A DNA stretch of 64,000 bases. Origin: Roseobacter weihaiensis (GTDB lineage: Bacteria; Pseudomonadota; Alphaproteobacteria; Rhodobacterales; Rhodobacteraceae). The position numbers and the translations under genes are program-made. The notes below the pieces were generated by a model. That model was not told where the DNA came from. It was given only the letters and a program-made list of their open reading frames with translations, and ran no database searches. Positions 57,761 to 64,000 of the stretch are shown one piece after another; positions within the stretch are counted from its first letter, which is position 1, and the number at the start of each line of letters is the position of its first letter. The DNA is taken from positions 1 to 64,000 of the forward strand of contig NZ_JACNMO010000021.1 of assembly GCF_020622345.1 (NCBI RefSeq). Reading direction: 5' to 3'.

Positions 57761-58122
57761 TTTCCGTGTCTCCTTCTTGTAGGTCTGCCCGCAGGATGCG
57801 GCAGCGTGGCTTAGCCAAAACCAGTTCATCAGACTGTGCGGGTTTCAGGCGGGCCGAAAGAGCATGGGTCGATAGATGGTCGCGTAGCGTAATCGAAATT
57901 CGCATCCTTCGAGCAGATTTCAAGTGAATTTATTGTAAAAGGCAACCAGCTGCATCTTTTGGCAAATTCCCGCTTACCGGGTGCGCGCGCTGCCTATTCC
58001 ATAGGATGATGCATTTTTCAGCAGCAGGCTTTTGCAAGGTTCGAAAAGAATTTTTACCAGTTGATAAAAAAATTATTTCGTGAGAGCGTTTCGGCTAATC
58101 CACGCGAAAACAGGGATGCCAC
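57761..58122. other. Divergent intergenic region between csp and preT
   Basis: A 362-base, AT-richer gap that should hold the csp leader and promoter and the preT promoter. I see one strong element, the RutR-like palindrome at 58053-58068. No coding sequence is recognised in it, and no confident csp promoter. Confidence 0.5.
58053..58068 (+). promoter_or_regulatory. RutR-like operator upstream of preT
   Basis: TTTACCA-GT-TGATAAA, a 7-2-7 palindrome with one mismatch from the perfect copy at 62105-62120. It lies 54 bases before the preT start. A weak TTGCAA-N17-TACCAG pair (58032-58060) would place it on the -10, suitable for repression. Confidence 0.6.
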
Positions 58123-59454
58123 ATGCCAAATGACAGCTTTACCCCCGGAGTAGTACCTGGCCGATTGGAGCCGGAAACCTATCAGGAACAGTTTTCAGAT
58201 TTGCATCCCCCCCTCGATGCGCACGAGGCGCTGGTGGCCGCAGACCGGTGCTATTTCTGTCATGATGCGCCCTGTATCACGGCGTGTCCGACCGAGATCG
58301 ACATCCCGCTCTTTATCCGCCAGATCGCAACTGGAACGCCGGATGCGGCGGCCAAGACGATCCTGACCCAGAATATCATGGGCGGCATGTGCGCTCGGGT
58401 CTGCCCGACCGAAGAGTTGTGTGAGCAAGCCTGCGTGCGCGAGTTGGCCGAAGGCAAGCCGGTGCTGATCGGGCAGCTGCAGCGTTATGCGACGGATCAT
58501 TTGCAGCAGCAGGATATCCACCCGTTCAGCCGCGCGCCTTCTACGGGTCAGAAAGTCGCCGTGGTGGGTGCGGGGCCTGCCGGTCTTTCCTGTGCGCATC
58601 GCCTGGCCATGCTGGGGCATGATGTGGTGGTCTATGACGCGCGTCCCAAGGCCGGGGGGCTCAACGAATACGGGATCGCGACCTACAAGACCACGGACGG
58701 CTTTGCCCAGGCGGAAGTGGACTGGCTGCTTAAAATCGGGGGCATTGAGATCCACTACGGCAAGGCGCTGGGGCCGGATCTGTCGCTTGATGCGTTGCGG
58801 GACGGGTTTGATGCGGTATTTCTGGGCATGGGCCTTGGTGGCGTGAACGCTCTGGGAGTCGCGGGCGACGGGAAAGAAGGCGTTCTCGACGCGGTCAATT
58901 TTATTGCCGACCTGCGGCAGGCCAGTGACGTGGCGTCCGTGCCGGTGGGGCGGGATGTTGTCGTCATCGGCGGCGGCATGACAGCGGTGGATGCGGCGGT
59001 GCAGGCGAAACTGCTTGGCGCGCTCAACGTTACGCTGGTCTACCGGCGGGGGCGCGACCGGATGAATGCCAGCGTCTTTGAGCAGGATCTGGCGGCGGCC
59101 AAAGGCGTTCGGATCGTGACCCATGCGGTTCCTACGGCAGTCCTTGGCAACGGCGCTGTTCGGGAGATTGAGTTCGCTTATGTTGATGCCGCGATGCAAC
59201 CGACGGGCCAGACCCTGCGACTGGCCGCAGATCAGGTGTTCAAGGCCATCGGTCAGACCTTTGCAGGCGATGGCATGCCCGCCTTGGAGAATGGCAAGAT
59301 CAAGGTTGATGCCGCAGGGCGCACCGCGCTCGAAGGGGTCTGGGCAGGAGGCGACTGCGCCAGCGGCGGCGATGATCTGACAGTGACGGCTGTGGCCGAA
59401 GGCCGGGACGCGGCCCTGGATATTCACGCGCACCTCACAGGCAAGGCAGGCTGA
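58123..59454 (+). CDS. preT: NAD-dependent dihydropyrimidine dehydrogenase subunit PreT
   Basis: Electron-input subunit that uses NAD(H) and feeds PreA in the reduction of uracil and thymine to dihydro forms. 443 residues, GltD-like. An N-terminal Fe-S region has CYFCHDAPCITACPTEID and CARVCPTEELCEQAC. A FAD motif follows (VVGAGPAGLSCA), then an NAD motif (VVIGGGMTAVDAAVQAKL). AGGGA precedes the ATG. Likely regulated by the RutR-type box just upstream and in one operon with preA. Confidence 0.93.
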   Translation: MPNDSFTPGVVPGRLEPETYQEQFSDLHPPLDAHEALVAADRCYFCHDAPCITACPTEIDIPLFIRQIATGTPDAAAKTILTQNIMGGMCARVCPTEELCEQACVRELAEGKPVLIGQLQRYATDHLQQQDIHPFSRAPSTGQKVAVVGAGPAGLSCAHRLAMLGHDVVVYDARPKAGGLNEYGIATYKTTDGFAQAEVDWLLKIGGIEIHYGKALGPDLSLDALRDGFDAVFLGMGLGGVNALGVAGDGKEGVLDAVNFIADLRQASDVASVPVGRDVVVIGGGMTAVDAAVQAKLLGALNVTLVYRRGRDRMNASVFEQDLAAAKGVRIVTHAVPTAVLGNGAVREIEFAYVDAAMQPTGQTLRLAADQVFKAIGQTFAGDGMPALENGKIKVDAAGRTALEGVWAGGDCASGGDDLTVTAVAEGRDAALDIHAHLTGKAG

Positions 59455-59480
59455 AGCCCACCTAACACGGAGAGACGACA

Positions 59481-60782
59481 ATGGCTGATTTGAAAAGTGA
59501 TTTCGTAGGCATCAAGAGCCCAAACCCGTTCTGGCTGGCCTCGGCACCGCCGACGGATAAGGAATACAATGTCCGCCGCGCCTTTGAGGCGGGCTGGGGT
59601 GGCGTGGTCTGGAAGACCCTCGGACTTGATCCGCATGTGGTCAACGTGAATGGCCCGCGGTATGGCGCGATCTGGGGGGCGGATCGGCGCTTGCTCGGGC
59701 TCAACAACATCGAGCTGATTACCGACCGCCCGCTACAGACCAATCTCGATGAGATCAAGGTGGTCAAACGCGATTACCCGGATCGGGCCATGGTTGTCTC
59801 TCTGATGGTGCCTTGTGAAGAAGAGCCGTGGAAGTTCATCCTGCCCAAGGTCGAAGACACGGGTGCGGATGGGGTGGAGCTGAACTTTGGCTGCCCGCAC
59901 GGGATGTCAGAGCGGGGCATGGGCTCGGCGGTCGGCCAGGTGCCGCAATACATCGAAATGGTCACCCGCTGGGTCAAGGCCAATACCCGGATGCCGGTGA
60001 TCGTGAAGCTGACGCCGAATATCACCGACATCAAGAAGCCTGCAGAAGCCGCCATGCGCGGCGGGGCCGATGCGGTCAGCCTCATCAACACGATCAACTC
60101 CATCACCTCTGTTGATCTCGACCTTTTTGCGCCGGAACCCACGATCGACGGCAAGGGCGCGCATGGGGGCTATTGCGGCCCGGCGGTCAAGCCCATCGCG
60201 CTGAACATGGTGGCGGAGATTGCGCGCACCCCAGAGATGGCGCATCTGCCCATTTCCGGTATTGGCGGGATCACCACGTGGCGCGATGCGGCGGAATTCA
60301 TGGCGCTGGGGGCGCGCAACGTGCAGGTCTGCACCGCGGCCATGACCTATGGTTTCAAGATCGTGCAGGAGATGATCTCGGGCCTGAGCGAATATATGGA
60401 CGAAAAGGGCATGACCTCGGTGGACAACCTGGTGCGGCGCGCGGTGCCCAACGTGACGGACTGGCAGCATCTCAACCTCAACTATGTGGCCAAGGCCAAG
60501 ATCAATCAGGATCTGTGCATTTCATGTGGCCGGTGCTTTGCCGCCTGCGAAGATACCTCGCATCAGGCGATCTCCATGTCCGAGGATCGTGTCTTTGAGG
60601 TCATCGACGCGGAATGCGTGGCCTGTAATCTCTGCGTCAACGTCTGTCCGGTCGAGGATTGCATCACGATGGAGGCGATGGCACCGGGGCTGGTCGACCC
60701 GCGCACCGGAAAAGTGGTCGAGCCGGACTACGCCAACTGGACGACCCATCCCAACAACCCGGCGGCGAAAGCAGCAGAGTAA
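59481..60782 (+). CDS. preA: NAD-dependent dihydropyrimidine dehydrogenase subunit PreA
   Basis: Catalytic subunit: an FMN TIM barrel related to dihydroorotate dehydrogenase (FVGIKSPNPFWLASAPPTD, NFGCPHGMSERGMGSAVG, ISGIGGITTWRDAAEFMALG), followed by a ferredoxin domain with two [4Fe-4S] motifs, CISCGRCFAACED and CVACNLCVNVCPVEDC. 433 residues is normal. GGAGAG precedes the ATG, 26 bases after preT. It makes dihydrouracil/dihydrothymine, the substrate of HydA encoded at the right end. Confidence 0.95.
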   Translation: MADLKSDFVGIKSPNPFWLASAPPTDKEYNVRRAFEAGWGGVVWKTLGLDPHVVNVNGPRYGAIWGADRRLLGLNNIELITDRPLQTNLDEIKVVKRDYPDRAMVVSLMVPCEEEPWKFILPKVEDTGADGVELNFGCPHGMSERGMGSAVGQVPQYIEMVTRWVKANTRMPVIVKLTPNITDIKKPAEAAMRGGADAVSLINTINSITSVDLDLFAPEPTIDGKGAHGGYCGPAVKPIALNMVAEIARTPEMAHLPISGIGGITTWRDAAEFMALGARNVQVCTAAMTYGFKIVQEMISGLSEYMDEKGMTSVDNLVRRAVPNVTDWQHLNLNYVAKAKINQDLCISCGRCFAACEDTSHQAISMSEDRVFEVIDAECVACNLCVNVCPVEDCITMEAMAPGLVDPRTGKVVEPDYANWTTHPNNPAAKAAE

Positions 60783-60783
60783 C

Positions 60784-61254
60784 CTAGCTGTCTTCGCGCT
60801 GCAGGATCGGCGCCGTGGGCAGGGGGTTTGGCATCACATACTCCGGCTGTGCCGCCTTGTCCGCGTCGGCCTTGGCTTCGGCCGCACGGGCGGCGGCGCG
60901 CTCCGCGGCGCGGGCTTCTTCGGCGGCTTTGGCTTCAATCTGCTGCTGCGCCTGACGGGCGAGGAAATCGGTGGCCGGGTGGCTGCCTGATTGCGCTTCG
61001 ATCACGGATTTCGGGGTCGGTTGCTGAGGCATGTCATCGCGCCCGCGTTTGAGCAAGGCGGCAAGCTGCGCCCCACCGGTGCCGGTGCCGTTCCCTGCCC
61101 CTTGCCCCGACTGGTCCGAGGCATTGCCCGCCATGTTGCTGGAGGTCGATACATTCACGGGCACCGTGGTTTGAGCGGCGGCAAAGCCCGCATCGGTTGA
61201 AAGTCCTGCGGCCGGTTGCGGCGCGTAGGGGTTTATCAAAGAGATCGCTGTCAT
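60784..61254 (-). CDS. Hypothetical Ala/Gln-rich protein
   Basis: I do not recognise this 156-residue protein. The first half is low-complexity (Ser, Thr, Gly, Asn; around 35-65). The second half contains a highly charged Ala/Glu/Lys/Arg helix or coiled coil (about 100-138) and a Pro-containing tail. No signal peptide or membrane segment is visible. AGGAA precedes the ATG. A CtrA-type TTAA-N7-TTAA sequence lies about 105 bases upstream, which hints at cell-cycle or motility control. Confidence 0.65.
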   Translation of the reverse strand: MTAISLINPYAPQPAAGLSTDAGFAAAQTTVPVNVSTSSNMAGNASDQSGQGAGNGTGTGGAQLAALLKRGRDDMPQQPTPKSVIEAQSGSHPATDFLARQAQQQIEAKAAEEARAAERAAARAAEAKADADKAAQPEYVMPNPLPTAPILQREDS

Positions 61255-61358
61255 TTTCAGTTCCTATCCATCAGCTTTTTCAGGGCCATCACCCGCAAAC
61301 ATTAAAGCTCTGTGAATATGAACGAAATCTTAACAGGAGCGTATAAATTACCTTTTGG

Positions 61359-61373
61359 TTAACAATCGCTTAA
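61359..61373. promoter_or_regulatory. Possible CtrA-binding site
   Basis: TTAA-CAATCGC-TTAA matches the CtrA consensus TTAA-N7-TTAA. It overlaps the rutR stop and lies about 105 bases upstream of the hypothetical gene that starts at 61254. The match is short and could occur by chance. Confidence 0.35.
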
Positions 61374-61987
61374 GGTTTCAGCAAGCGGGTGAAGAGCGTG
61401 ACGAGGTAGTCCTCGGCTCCCTGCTGCGGCTGCGGCTCGCCTTGCAGCAGAACATCAACCTGCGAGGCAAAATCCGCGTAGTGCTGTGTGGTGGCCCAGA
61501 TTGAGAAGATCAGATGTCTCGGATCTACAGGTCGCAGGTGCCCTGCATCCATCCAGATCTGTATGAGCGCGCATTTTTCGTCGAAAAGCGGTTTCAACCC
61601 TGCTTCGAGATGAGGGCCCATCCGTGGTGCGCCCTGAAGGATCTCGCCAGCAAAAAGCCGGCTCTGACGCGGTAGTTCATGGGCCATATCGAGTTTGCGC
61701 TGAACGTAGTTGAGGATTTCCGACAGCGGGTCTCCCTCCGGATCAAGTGTTACCAAAGGATCAAGCCATGTCTCCATCAGTTGGTTCAACAGCGTGACGT
61801 GAATTTCTTCTTTACCTTCAAAATAGTAAAGAATGTTTGGCTTGCTGAGGCCGGCGCGTTCGGCGATCTGGTCTAGGGTGGTCCCGCGGTAGCCATGTTG
61901 TGAAAAAACCTCAAGTGCTGCATCCAGGATAAGGCTCCTGTTGCGCTGTTGAATGCGGCTGGATTTTTTGAGTTGGGCCTGGGTCAA
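61370..61987 (-). CDS. rutR: TetR family regulator, RutR-type
   Basis: A 205-residue repressor. The N-terminal helix-turn-helix reads TTLDQIAERAGLSKPNILYYF. The C-terminal ligand domain keeps RutR-specific stretches: SRLFAGEILQGAP, DEKCALIQIWMDAG and HLIFSIWATTQHYADFASQV, nearly the same as E. coli RutR, which binds uracil or thymine. I chose TTG at 61987 because GGAG is eight bases upstream; GTG at 61993 is only two bases from it. It lies between the preTA and hyu operons and probably controls both. Confidence 0.88.
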   Translation of the reverse strand: MTQAQLKKSSRIQQRNRSLILDAALEVFSQHGYRGTTLDQIAERAGLSKPNILYYFEGKEEIHVTLLNQLMETWLDPLVTLDPEGDPLSEILNYVQRKLDMAHELPRQSRLFAGEILQGAPRMGPHLEAGLKPLFDEKCALIQIWMDAGHLRPVDPRHLIFSIWATTQHYADFASQVDVLLQGEPQPQQGAEDYLVTLFTRLLKP

Positions 61988-62072
61988 ATACACGTCTCCA
62001 ATCGGGTGCTGTTATTTTGAGCGACGGCGCGGAATTGTGCAAAAGCCCCTTCCCCGGCGAGACACGCAAGCC

Positions 62073-62101
62073 TTGACTTGGCGCAGCCGAGCCGCAATCG
62101 T
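62073..62101 (+). promoter_or_regulatory. Candidate promoter of the hyuC operon
   Basis: TTGACT at 62073-62078, then 17 bases, then AATCGT at 62096-62101. The -10 is weak. A start near 62108 would fall inside the RutR-type operator at 62105-62120, which is a sensible place for repression. Confidence 0.35.
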
Positions 62102-62104
62102 GGC

Positions 62105-62120
62105 TTTACCAAATGGTAAA
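62105..62120 (+). promoter_or_regulatory. RutR-like operator, perfect palindrome
   Basis: TTTACCA-AA-TGGTAAA is a perfect 7-2-7 inverted repeat with the same length and spacing as the E. coli RutR site, remembered as TTGACCA-N2-TGGTCAA. It lies 45 bases before hyuC, in the region shared with the divergent rutR-type gene. Confidence 0.75.
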
Positions 62121-62121
62121 A

Positions 62122-62136
62122 TTTACCATTGGTCAA
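62122..62136 (+). promoter_or_regulatory. Second RutR-like half-site pair
   Basis: TTTACCA-T-TGGTCAA: the same half-sites as the RutR box but with one spacer base instead of two, starting one base after the perfect palindrome. The right half matches the E. coli consensus exactly. It may assist binding or be a decayed copy. Confidence 0.5.
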
Positions 62137-62164: not shown

Positions 62165-63415
62165 ATGCCCGCGCCCGGACAGAACCTCAAGATCAATCCG
62201 GATCGTCTGTGGGACAGCCTGATGGAAATGGCCAAGATCGGCCCCGGCGTGGCCGGTGGCAACAACCGCCAGACCCTGACCGATGAGGATGGTGAGGCGC
62301 GCGCGCTGTTTCAGACCTGGTGCGAGGCGGCGGGCTGCAGCATGGGGCTTGACCAGATGGGCAACATGTTTGCCCGTCGCGAGGGCACCGACCCGGACGC
62401 GCTGCCGGTTTATGTGGGCAGCCACCTCGATACGCAGCCGACGGGCGGCAAATACGACGGGGTGCTGGGCGTGTTGGGCGGGCTGGAGATCATCCGTACC
62501 CTGAATGATCTGAATATCAAGACAAGGCACCCGATTGTCGTGACCAACTTTACCAACGAGGAAGGCACGCGCTATGCCCCGGCGATGCTGTCGTCCGGCG
62601 TTTTTGCGGGCATTCACACGCAGGATTGGGCCTACGCCCGCGAAGATGCGCAGGGCAAGGCCTTTGGCGACGAGTTGCAGCGCATCGGCTGGCGCGGGGA
62701 CGAAGAGGTGGGCGCCCGCAAGATGCACGCCTTCTTTGAGCTGCACATCGAACAAGGCCCGATTCTGGAGGCGGAGGGCCGCGATATCGGGGTGGTCACC
62801 CACGGTCAGGGTCTGAGCTGGACGCAGGTCACCATCACCGGCAAGGACAGTCACACCGGATCGACGCCGATGCCCATGCGCCGCAACGCGGGCCTCGGGA
62901 TGGCACGGGTGCTGGAAAAGGTGGACGAGATCGCCTGGAGCCGCAAACCGCATGCGGTGGGGGCGGCAGGGCACATCGATGTCTACCCGAACTCGCGCAA
63001 TGTGATCCCCGGCAAGGTCGTGTTTACCGTGGATCTGCGCTCCCCTGATCTCAGCGTCATCAAGGATATGGAAGCGCGATTGCGCGTCGAAGGTCAAAAG
63101 ATAGCCGATGAGATGGGGCTGGAGATCGCCTTTGAGAAAGTCGGCGGTTTCGACCCGGTGGCCTTTGACGAGGGTTGCGTCACGGCAATCCGCAACGCGG
63201 CGGAGCGGTTGGGCTATTCTCATATGAACCTGATTTCAGGCGCGGGACATGACGCCTGCTGGATCAACCGGGTGGCCCCCACGGCCATGGTAATGTGTCC
63301 CTGCGTCGATGGGCTGAGCCACAACGAGGCCGAAGAGATCACCAAGGACTGGGCCATGGCGGGCACCGATGTGCTGCTGCACGCGGTGGTGGAGACGGCG
63401 GAGATTATGGGGTGA
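62165..63415 (+). CDS. hyuC: Zn-dependent N-carbamoyl-beta-alanine amidohydrolase (beta-ureidopropionase)
   Basis: Removes the carbamoyl group from N-carbamoyl-beta-alanine or its methyl form, the third step of reductive pyrimidine breakdown. 416 residues, M20/AtzC-type. Metal motifs: GSHLDTQPTGGKYDGVLG, TNFTNEEGTRY, ELHIEQGPIL and GAGHDACWINR. AAAGGA precedes the ATG at 62165. First gene of an operon with a small gene and hydA, downstream of RutR-like operators. Confidence 0.92.
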   Translation: MPAPGQNLKINPDRLWDSLMEMAKIGPGVAGGNNRQTLTDEDGEARALFQTWCEAAGCSMGLDQMGNMFARREGTDPDALPVYVGSHLDTQPTGGKYDGVLGVLGGLEIIRTLNDLNIKTRHPIVVTNFTNEEGTRYAPAMLSSGVFAGIHTQDWAYAREDAQGKAFGDELQRIGWRGDEEVGARKMHAFFELHIEQGPILEAEGRDIGVVTHGQGLSWTQVTITGKDSHTGSTPMPMRRNAGLGMARVLEKVDEIAWSRKPHAVGAAGHIDVYPNSRNVIPGKVVFTVDLRSPDLSVIKDMEARLRVEGQKIADEMGLEIAFEKVGGFDPVAFDEGCVTAIRNAAERLGYSHMNLISGAGHDACWINRVAPTAMVMCPCVDGLSHNEAEEITKDWAMAGTDVLLHAVVETAEIMG

Positions 63416-63690
63416 CGGATCAGGACCAAGACCTTGACCGGATGGATCACGCGGAACTGCTGAGTACGGCGCGACAATTGCGTCAGGCTATTCGCGCGCA
63501 TCGCGATGCAAGCGGTCATGACCTGTGCTGGCACTGGCCGGACATGTGGGCCCTGCTGCCCGACACTCCGACTGATGGTCAAGAGGTTCCTGCTTGGCCT
63601 CAATTCATGCGCGGTTGCGTCAAGTATCGCGCTTCACTTGAGCGAGAGCTGTCCGAAGCTCCGCGATCTGACAGGGAGTTTGACGGATGA
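63412..63690 (+). CDS. Small hypothetical protein between hyuC and hydA
   Basis: A 92-residue soluble protein I do not recognise. It starts with GTG overlapping the hyuC stop (GTGA) and ends overlapping the hydA ATG (ATGA), so it is translated as part of the pyrimidine operon. It is acidic at the N-terminus, helical (ELLSTARQLRQAIRAHRDA), and has a Trp-rich middle (LCWHWPDMWALLP). The tight coupling suggests a subunit or helper role, which is an inference. Confidence 0.78.
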   Translation: MTDQDQDLDRMDHAELLSTARQLRQAIRAHRDASGHDLCWHWPDMWALLPDTPTDGQEVPAWPQFMRGCVKYRASLERELSEAPRSDREFDG

Positions 63691-64000
63691 GCAAAGTCAT
63701 CAAGGGCGGACAGGTCTGCACGGCAGATCGGACGTGGAAAGCGGACATTCTGATCGAAGGCGAGACCATCAAACAGATCGGCGAGGACCTTTCGGGCGAC
63801 GACTACATCGATGCCGAAGGCGCCTATGTGATCCCCGGCGGGATTGATCCGCATACGCATCTGGAGATGCCGTTCATGGGCACCACGGCGGCGGAAACTT
63901 TTGAGTCCGGCACCTGGGCGGCGGCAGCGGGGGGCACCACGATGGTCGTCGATTTCTGCCTGCCGGGTGCAGACGGGTCGATCAAGAACGCCATCAATGA
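63687..64000 (+). CDS. hydA: Dihydropyrimidinase, N-terminal part (cut by window end)
   Basis: Opens the ring of dihydrouracil or dihydrothymine to N-carbamoyl-beta-alanine, between PreTA and HyuC. The first 104 codons are present. SKVIKGGQVCTADRTWKADI is the typical start, and GGIDPHTHLEMPFMGTTAAE contains the first zinc-binding HxH. AGGGAG precedes the ATG at 63687, which overlaps the previous stop. The carbamylated lysine and the other ligands lie outside the window. Confidence 0.93.
   Translation, partial: MSKVIKGGQVCTADRTWKADILIEGETIKQIGEDLSGDDYIDAEGAYVIPGGIDPHTHLEMPFMGTTAAETFESGTWAAAAGGTTMVVDFCLPGADGSIKNAIN

Follow-up and report, generated by a model that had tools for sequence, protein, structure and literature searches.

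A RutR-like regulator with predicted operators before both operons of reductive pyrimidine breakdown in Roseobacter weihaiensis

We analyzed a 64,000-nucleotide stretch of the Roseobacter weihaiensis genome (contig NZ_JACNMO010000021.1, positions 1 to 64,000; hereafter, the window), at the end of which a gene for a RutR-like TetR regulator lies between two operons for the reductive breakdown of pyrimidines. Very probably, this regulator represses both preT-preA and hyuC-orf87-hydA through operators of the TTTACCA-N2-TGGTAAA type, and uracil or thymine releases it. According to this model, which is built from sequence comparison, a dimer of the RutR-like protein would bind the operators of both operons and repress them, on the hyuC side probably including the ABC transporter genes that follow hydA. 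At preT, the right half-site would serve as the -35 element (TTGATA), such that repressor and polymerase would compete; at hyuC, the operator would lie just past the -10 element and cover the start site, next to a second, weaker site. Uracil or thymine would enter the conserved pocket, the repressor would leave the DNA, and the enzymes for the two halves of the reductive pathway would then be produced together. The rutR-like gene may also control itself via the shared intergenic region. The model gives an uncharacterized regulator, with its predicted operators, a place in uracil breakdown by an abundant marine group.

The gene order described in an earlier note on this DNA, with a RutR-type TetR gene between preTA and hyuC-hydA, was borne out by profile scores and by a match to the solved RutR structures (Table 1). 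Both palindromes named there were also found, the one preceding hyuC perfect and the one preceding preT with a single mismatch. The half-site pair said to adjoin the former is likewise present, but its spacer is 1 base and not 2. Conservation was assessed in 19 genomes of the same genus, 15 of which were aligned (regulator ≥72% identical); G010, G012, G017, and G018, with regulators 50–54% identical and varying sites, were left out. Of the 14 same-genus hyuC upstreams with a perfect first palindrome, 12 carried the second pair in register with ≤3 mismatches, which was equalled by 15 of 2800 shuffles; the comparison is confined to the genus, and the pair is a probable accessory site. Across the window as a whole, we counted five palindrome sites at ≤3 mismatches, against a mean of 0.58 and a maximum of 3 in 100 shuffles.

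The regulator scores well above the gathering cut-off of the RutR/YcdC domain family (PF08362; 146.4 vs 25) and of TetR_N (61.5 vs 24). In E. coli RutR, uracil is contacted by W77, Y97, W167, Q171, and Q179, and uracil impairs DNA binding (PMC10891134). All five residues are present in the window protein (E. coli numbers), and each position is kept in 109–110 of 110 aligned rows, a count that includes duplicates and both paralogue groups. Given these retained residues and the effect of uracil on the E. coli protein, uracil-relieved repression is the best reading. A tree of 44 rows put the window group and E. coli RutR on one side and the second paralogue group on the other, although long branches leave this placement unsure. 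An alternative is that the same local regulon responds naturally to another compound of the route, such as dihydrouracil, N-carbamoyl-beta-alanine, or a related ring, instead of uracil or thymine. The regulon also covers ring opening and later steps, and the paralogue group, whose pocket residues are identical, may act on other clusters, both of which favor such a signal; the intact set of uracil contacts argues against it, and we regard it as improbable. We also considered whether residues of the recognition helix pair with the operator base that distinguishes TTTACC from TTGACC, and rejected this idea because one genome with one regulator can have both (e.g., G020, with TTTACC at preT and TTGACC at hyuC).

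The imperfection of the preT operator is, in the aligned upstreams, conserved and not a sign of decay. Its right half reads TTGATAAA in 50 of 71 distinct preT upstreams, and in 48 of these 50 a purine-TG follows 12–13 bases on. In the ten Shimia-type preT upstreams, the operator lies further up, and TTGATT or TTGATC stands 13 bases before the GTG in nine (counted by eye), with TTGAAA in G031. From these patterns, we take the TTGATA-type element as the probable -35 of preT; the right half-site thus probably doubles as a promoter element, and this apparent double use gives a reason for the imperfect palindrome. On the other side, the invariant CTTGACT and CAATCGT precede the hyuC operator, which would therefore cover the hyuC start site. 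A regulator that activates, or that displaces another factor, instead of plainly repressing is very unlikely: it has a precedent in E. coli RutR, which increases carAB expression by excluding another regulator (PMC10891134), but both operators here lie on or immediately past the predicted promoter core, which is the position of a repressor.

The search of related genomes for the motif, suggested in the earlier note as a test, found the palindromes before orthologous preT and hyuC operons. For this we used 52 of 62 loci, all from Rhodobacteraceae, after dropping L167–L176 (partial matches of 24–48% identity from other lineages); this set overlaps the genome samples and is not independent of them. 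In all 45 loci with preT, the 250 bases before the gene contained a match to the degenerate pattern TTKACCANNTGGTMAA with ≤2 mismatches (6 exact, 37 with one, and 2 with two mismatches), a level reached by ~0.3% of shuffles. Control upstreams of preA (n = 46) and hydA (n = 52) never fell below 4 and 3 mismatches, respectively. In G022, G024, and G030, preT is unlinked to rutR and still has a site, which departs from the degenerate pattern by 2, 2, and 1 mismatches, respectively; the G022 preT frame contains one internal stop. Before rutR, an exact TTKACCANNTGGTMAA site was present in 35 of the 52 loci. In the other 17, rutR and hyuC are separated by a second RutR-like gene, and hyuC is preceded by two sites (≤2 mismatches); there, the paralogues may divide control of the pathway halves between them. 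The tandem gene encodes the recognition helix LPKANLHYYF, not LSKPNILYYF, and its loci have two CTGACC-type sites before hyuC.

We then compared the occurrence of site, PreA, and RutR in a family sample of 120 genomes, one per genus. PreA scored above its cut-off in 103 genomes and RutR, called at E ≤1e-30, in 102, a few of which, such as G026, match through the second paralogue alone. The exact preT-type site TTTACCRNTTGATAAA occurred in 82 genomes and the reversed pattern in 8. Tabulated by eye, the site was present in 79 of 96 genomes with both proteins, 2 of 7 with PreA alone, none of 6 with RutR alone, and 1 of 11 with neither (Fisher's exact test, p = 2.4e-10 for 79/96 vs 3/24 and p = 0.005 for 79/96 vs 2/7). 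Seventy-seven of the 82 sites lie 1.4–2.9 kb upstream of preA and on its strand, the five others being those of G075, G111, G064, G143, and G139. Among genomes with PreA and without a RutR match, G032, G071, and G100 showed 5 or 6 mismatches before preT and G127 showed 4. The comparison supports a single local regulon.

Several results weigh against this reading. The exact preT-type site is missing from 17 of the 96 genomes with both proteins, whereas it is present in G070 and G160 (86% and 84% complete), which have PreA and no RutR match, and G105 (99% complete, likewise lacking a RutR match) carries TTTAGCGTTTGATAAA, which differs from the preT-type site by one base. The regulator falls below both NCBIfam RutR equivalog cut-offs (TIGR03613 / PRK15008; 218.1 vs 368 and 196.7 vs 230), and on these scores it is therefore RutR-like rather than a curated RutR. 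Over the whole genome, the strict pattern at ≤2 mismatches is unenriched, with 4 sites vs 8 for the reversed-pattern control; given no excess in abundance, the case rests on the position and conservation of the sites. The degenerate pattern TTKACCANNTGGTMAA at ≤1 mismatch gave 5 sites vs 1 in the control: two intergenic sites at this locus, one inside hyuC, one within a different gene, and one upstream of an unrelated gene. Finally, in the 17 loci that encode it, the second RutR-like protein could bind the hyuC sites instead. These loci, each with an operator pair for the tandem gene, lend some color to the idea that another TetR protein binds the palindromes and that the neighboring RutR-like protein has other targets, which we consider highly improbable for the window: the next best match to the regulator in its genome is very weak (E 6e-7, among the matches listed), and throughout the family the sites tend to occur where RutR does.

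As for a wider regulon, C5:100136 (before a P-type ATPase-like gene), C8:94194 (in an aminotransferase-like gene), and 62349 (in hyuC) were treated as chance matches. The last is a one-mismatch site, TTGACCAGATGGGCAA, at 62349-62364 within the hyuC coding sequence; the same or a similar match occurs inside hyuC of some relatives (e.g., L221 8801), perhaps merely from protein conservation there.

RutR-like control of reductive uracil breakdown is an already known kind of regulation, to which this locus in Roseobacter adds a member. The earlier note had read the locus as one regulator acting on both operons, the same one as in E. coli, rewired from the oxidative to the PreTA/HydA/HyuC route. The shared regulator is well supported by the RutR-like protein with its intact pocket residues and by conserved operators before both operons that track PreA and RutR; the special rewiring is not, because such control is in print for Pseudomonas putida PydR, RutR regulons are described in 68 genomes, and Sinorhizobium meliloti has rutR beside hyuC-hydA. 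PydR is a RutR-like repressor of the dihydropyrimidine dehydrogenase gene (Hidese et al. 2012, J Biochem 152:341; via PMC7332683). Judged by the title of that paper, it resembles the window regulator, which has a conserved predicted operator before the dihydropyrimidine dehydrogenase genes; the window regulator also has a predicted operator before hyuC-hydA. Leyn et al. 2016 (PMC5343134) reconstructed RutR regulons of the class "Pyrimidine catabolism" in 68 genomes from 13 groups of Proteobacteria, the motif showing substitutions specific to the taxon; preT, hyu, and pyd genes go unmentioned in the main text, the gene lists being placed in RegPrecise and in tables outside it. On pSymB of S. 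meliloti (CP090106), an annotated rutR is divergent from genes for a Zn-dependent hydrolase and hydA, with TTGACCGGTTGGTAAA between them and ABC genes further on, but preA is ~7 kb off, behind transposases and other genes. E. coli RutR (3loc, 4jyk, 6z1b; PMC10891134) shares the domain family, the uracil-contact residues, and the site type, and differs in facing rutABCDEFG of the oxidative route; by our reading, the E. coli rutA-rutR gap has no match at ≤2 mismatches and a single one at 3, TTGACCGTTTAGTCCA. RutA (TIGR03612) was above its cut-off in none of 19 genomes (the window's own, 10 of the same genus, and 8 others of the class), 12 of which have weak matches, the best in the window genome scoring 45.8 bits against a cut-off of 498.3. 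A literature search, with subscription journals mostly outside its scope, returned no paper on this Roseobacter regulon among the matches listed.

A more novel lead than the window regulon itself is the possible replacement of PreTA in relatives. In Alphaproteobacteria, mostly Rhodobacteraceae, RutR, hyuC, hydA, and the ABC genes may form a module with an exchangeable first step, supplied by PreTA in the window and in some relatives by TIGR03842, as an F420-dependent dihydropyrimidine dehydrogenase with its own F420 biosynthesis operon; we see the evidence for this proposal as evenly poised. TIGR03842, an LLM-class F420-dependent oxidoreductase family, is above its cut-off in 6 of the 120 family genomes, and PreA is missing in 5 of these 6 vs 12 of the 114 others (Fisher p = 1.8e-4). 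A class sample of 337 genomes added four TIGR03842-positive genomes, none with PreA (9 of 10 without PreA in total), although at class level this absence says little, preT being present in only 4 of 24 class genomes. In G424, the TIGR03842 gene lies directly before hyuC-hydA and an ABC transporter; in G098, cofGHDCE-npdG-TIGR03842-RutR-like is followed by another RutR-like gene and hyuC-hydA-ABC; and in G132, the F420 operon and hyuC-hydA adjoin on one strand. G150 has a perfect site, TTGACCAATTGGTCAA, just before cofG, and G084 has a one-mismatch site ~100 bases before TIGR03842, with rutR-hyuC-hydA on another contig in both. The seven loci of this kind (Table 1) come mostly from genomes without PreA, and dihydropyrimidinase is above its cut-off in 8 of the 10 TIGR03842-positive genomes.

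Other observations speak against an exchange. PreA and TIGR03842 occur together in G149, and no dihydropyrimidinase match was found in G394 or G075 (the latter 74% complete). Dihydropyrimidinase is present in 4 of 5 family genomes with TIGR03842 and without PreA, but also in 5 of 12 with neither. The stretches from G098, Leisingera, and G075 contain no site at ≤2 mismatches, and the Leisingera and Paracoccus plasmid copies lack hydA in the stretch examined. A relationship of TIGR03842 to E. coli RutA was rejected, as there is no meaningful similarity (E 0.14); the nearest solved structures are F420-dependent methylene-tetrahydromethanopterin reductases. Nothing in print on TIGR03842 as a replacement of PreTA appeared among the matches listed in the literature search. 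Why Proteobacteria make F420 is posed as an unanswered question in a review (PMC8498797). If the exchange is real, F420 gains a role in nucleobase breakdown, and uracil reduction under RutR control becomes a testable answer.

Table 1. Coordinates of the features discussed, in the window unless a locus (L number) of a related genome is given
Feature	Position	Strand	Basis or remark
Predicted operator before hyuC, between hyuC and rutR; perfect palindrome TTTACCAAATGGTAAA	62105-62120	+	0 mismatches; exact in 14/15 aligned same-genus upstreams
Predicted operator before preT, TTTACCAGTTGATAAA	58053-58068	+	1 mismatch; identical in 15/15 aligned same-genus upstreams
Second half-site pair, TTTACCA-T-TGGTCAA	62122-62136	+	spacer 1 base
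Probable -35 element inside preT operator, TTGATA	58061..58066	+	TTGATAAA kept in preT upstreams
Candidate -10 of preT, GAGCGT, 17 bases after TTGATA	58084..58089	+	sequence reading, column counts
Probable -35 of hyuC, TTGACT	62073..62078	+	CTTGACT invariant in 15 aligned same-genus upstreams
Candidate -10 of hyuC, AATCGT, 17 bases after TTGACT	62096..62101	+	CAATCGT invariant in 15 aligned same-genus upstreams
preT, NAD(P)-binding subunit of dihydropyrimidine dehydrogenase	58123..59454	+	Fer4_20 and Pyr_redox_2 domains; directly before preA
preA, dihydropyrimidine dehydrogenase catalytic subunit	59481..60782	+	NF006183, 720.5 bits vs cut-off 335
156-aa (amino acid) gene between preA and rutR-like gene	60784-61254	-	without Pfam or NCBIfam match
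RutR-like TetR repressor gene (predicted)	61370..61993	-	TetR_C_3 146.4 bits, cut-off 25; solved RutR match E ~5e-52
hyuC, Zn-dependent hydantoinase/carbamoylase-family amidase	62165..63415	+	TIGR01879 403.5 bits, cut-off 204
orf87, between hyuC and hydA	63427..63690	+	without family match (Pfam, NCBIfam)
hydA, dihydropyrimidinase	63687..64000, cut by window end; contig end ~65147	+	TIGR02033
Second tandem RutR-like gene	L151 6276-6917; also L129, L133, L139, L141, L143, L144, L149, L150, L152, L153, L155, L158, L159, L162, L164, L166		
F420 operon and TIGR03842 beside RutR-like genes, RutR-type sites, or hyuC-hydA	L196 3038-18320; L197 1800-15996; L199 3395-9749		
F420 operon and TIGR03842, further loci	L198 9184-16201; L215 3056-10551; L184 1261-8612; L195 3223-10545		

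The genes of the window end and of the contig beyond it fit the reductive pyrimidine pathway, with PreA at 720.5 bits (cut-off 335) and dihydropyrimidinase, read as a whole hydA gene from the contig (L073), at 580.9 bits against the TIGR02033 cut-off of 393.25. By gene context, hyuC probably encodes beta-ureidopropionase; its best-scoring model bears the name allantoate amidohydrolase, though the TIGR01879 family fits beta-ureidopropionase. Beyond hydA and on the same strand lie a DUF4760 gene, an ABC ATPase, two permeases, and an NMT1-type binding protein (L073 10155-14436), the probable pyrimidine importer of the hyuC operon. In G034 (L054 8769-10172) and G030 (L055 8774-10102), the RutR-like gene and an omega-aminotransferase gene diverge, and a 2-mismatch site lies in the gap; the L054 aminotransferase scored 777.8 bits with the AptA model (cut-off 500), and that of L055 was assigned by likeness. 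From these neighbors, the step after beta-alanine may belong to the regulon as well. Copies of the 156-aa gene (60784-61254) with 52–58% identity were found in 8 of the 14 same-genus clusters.

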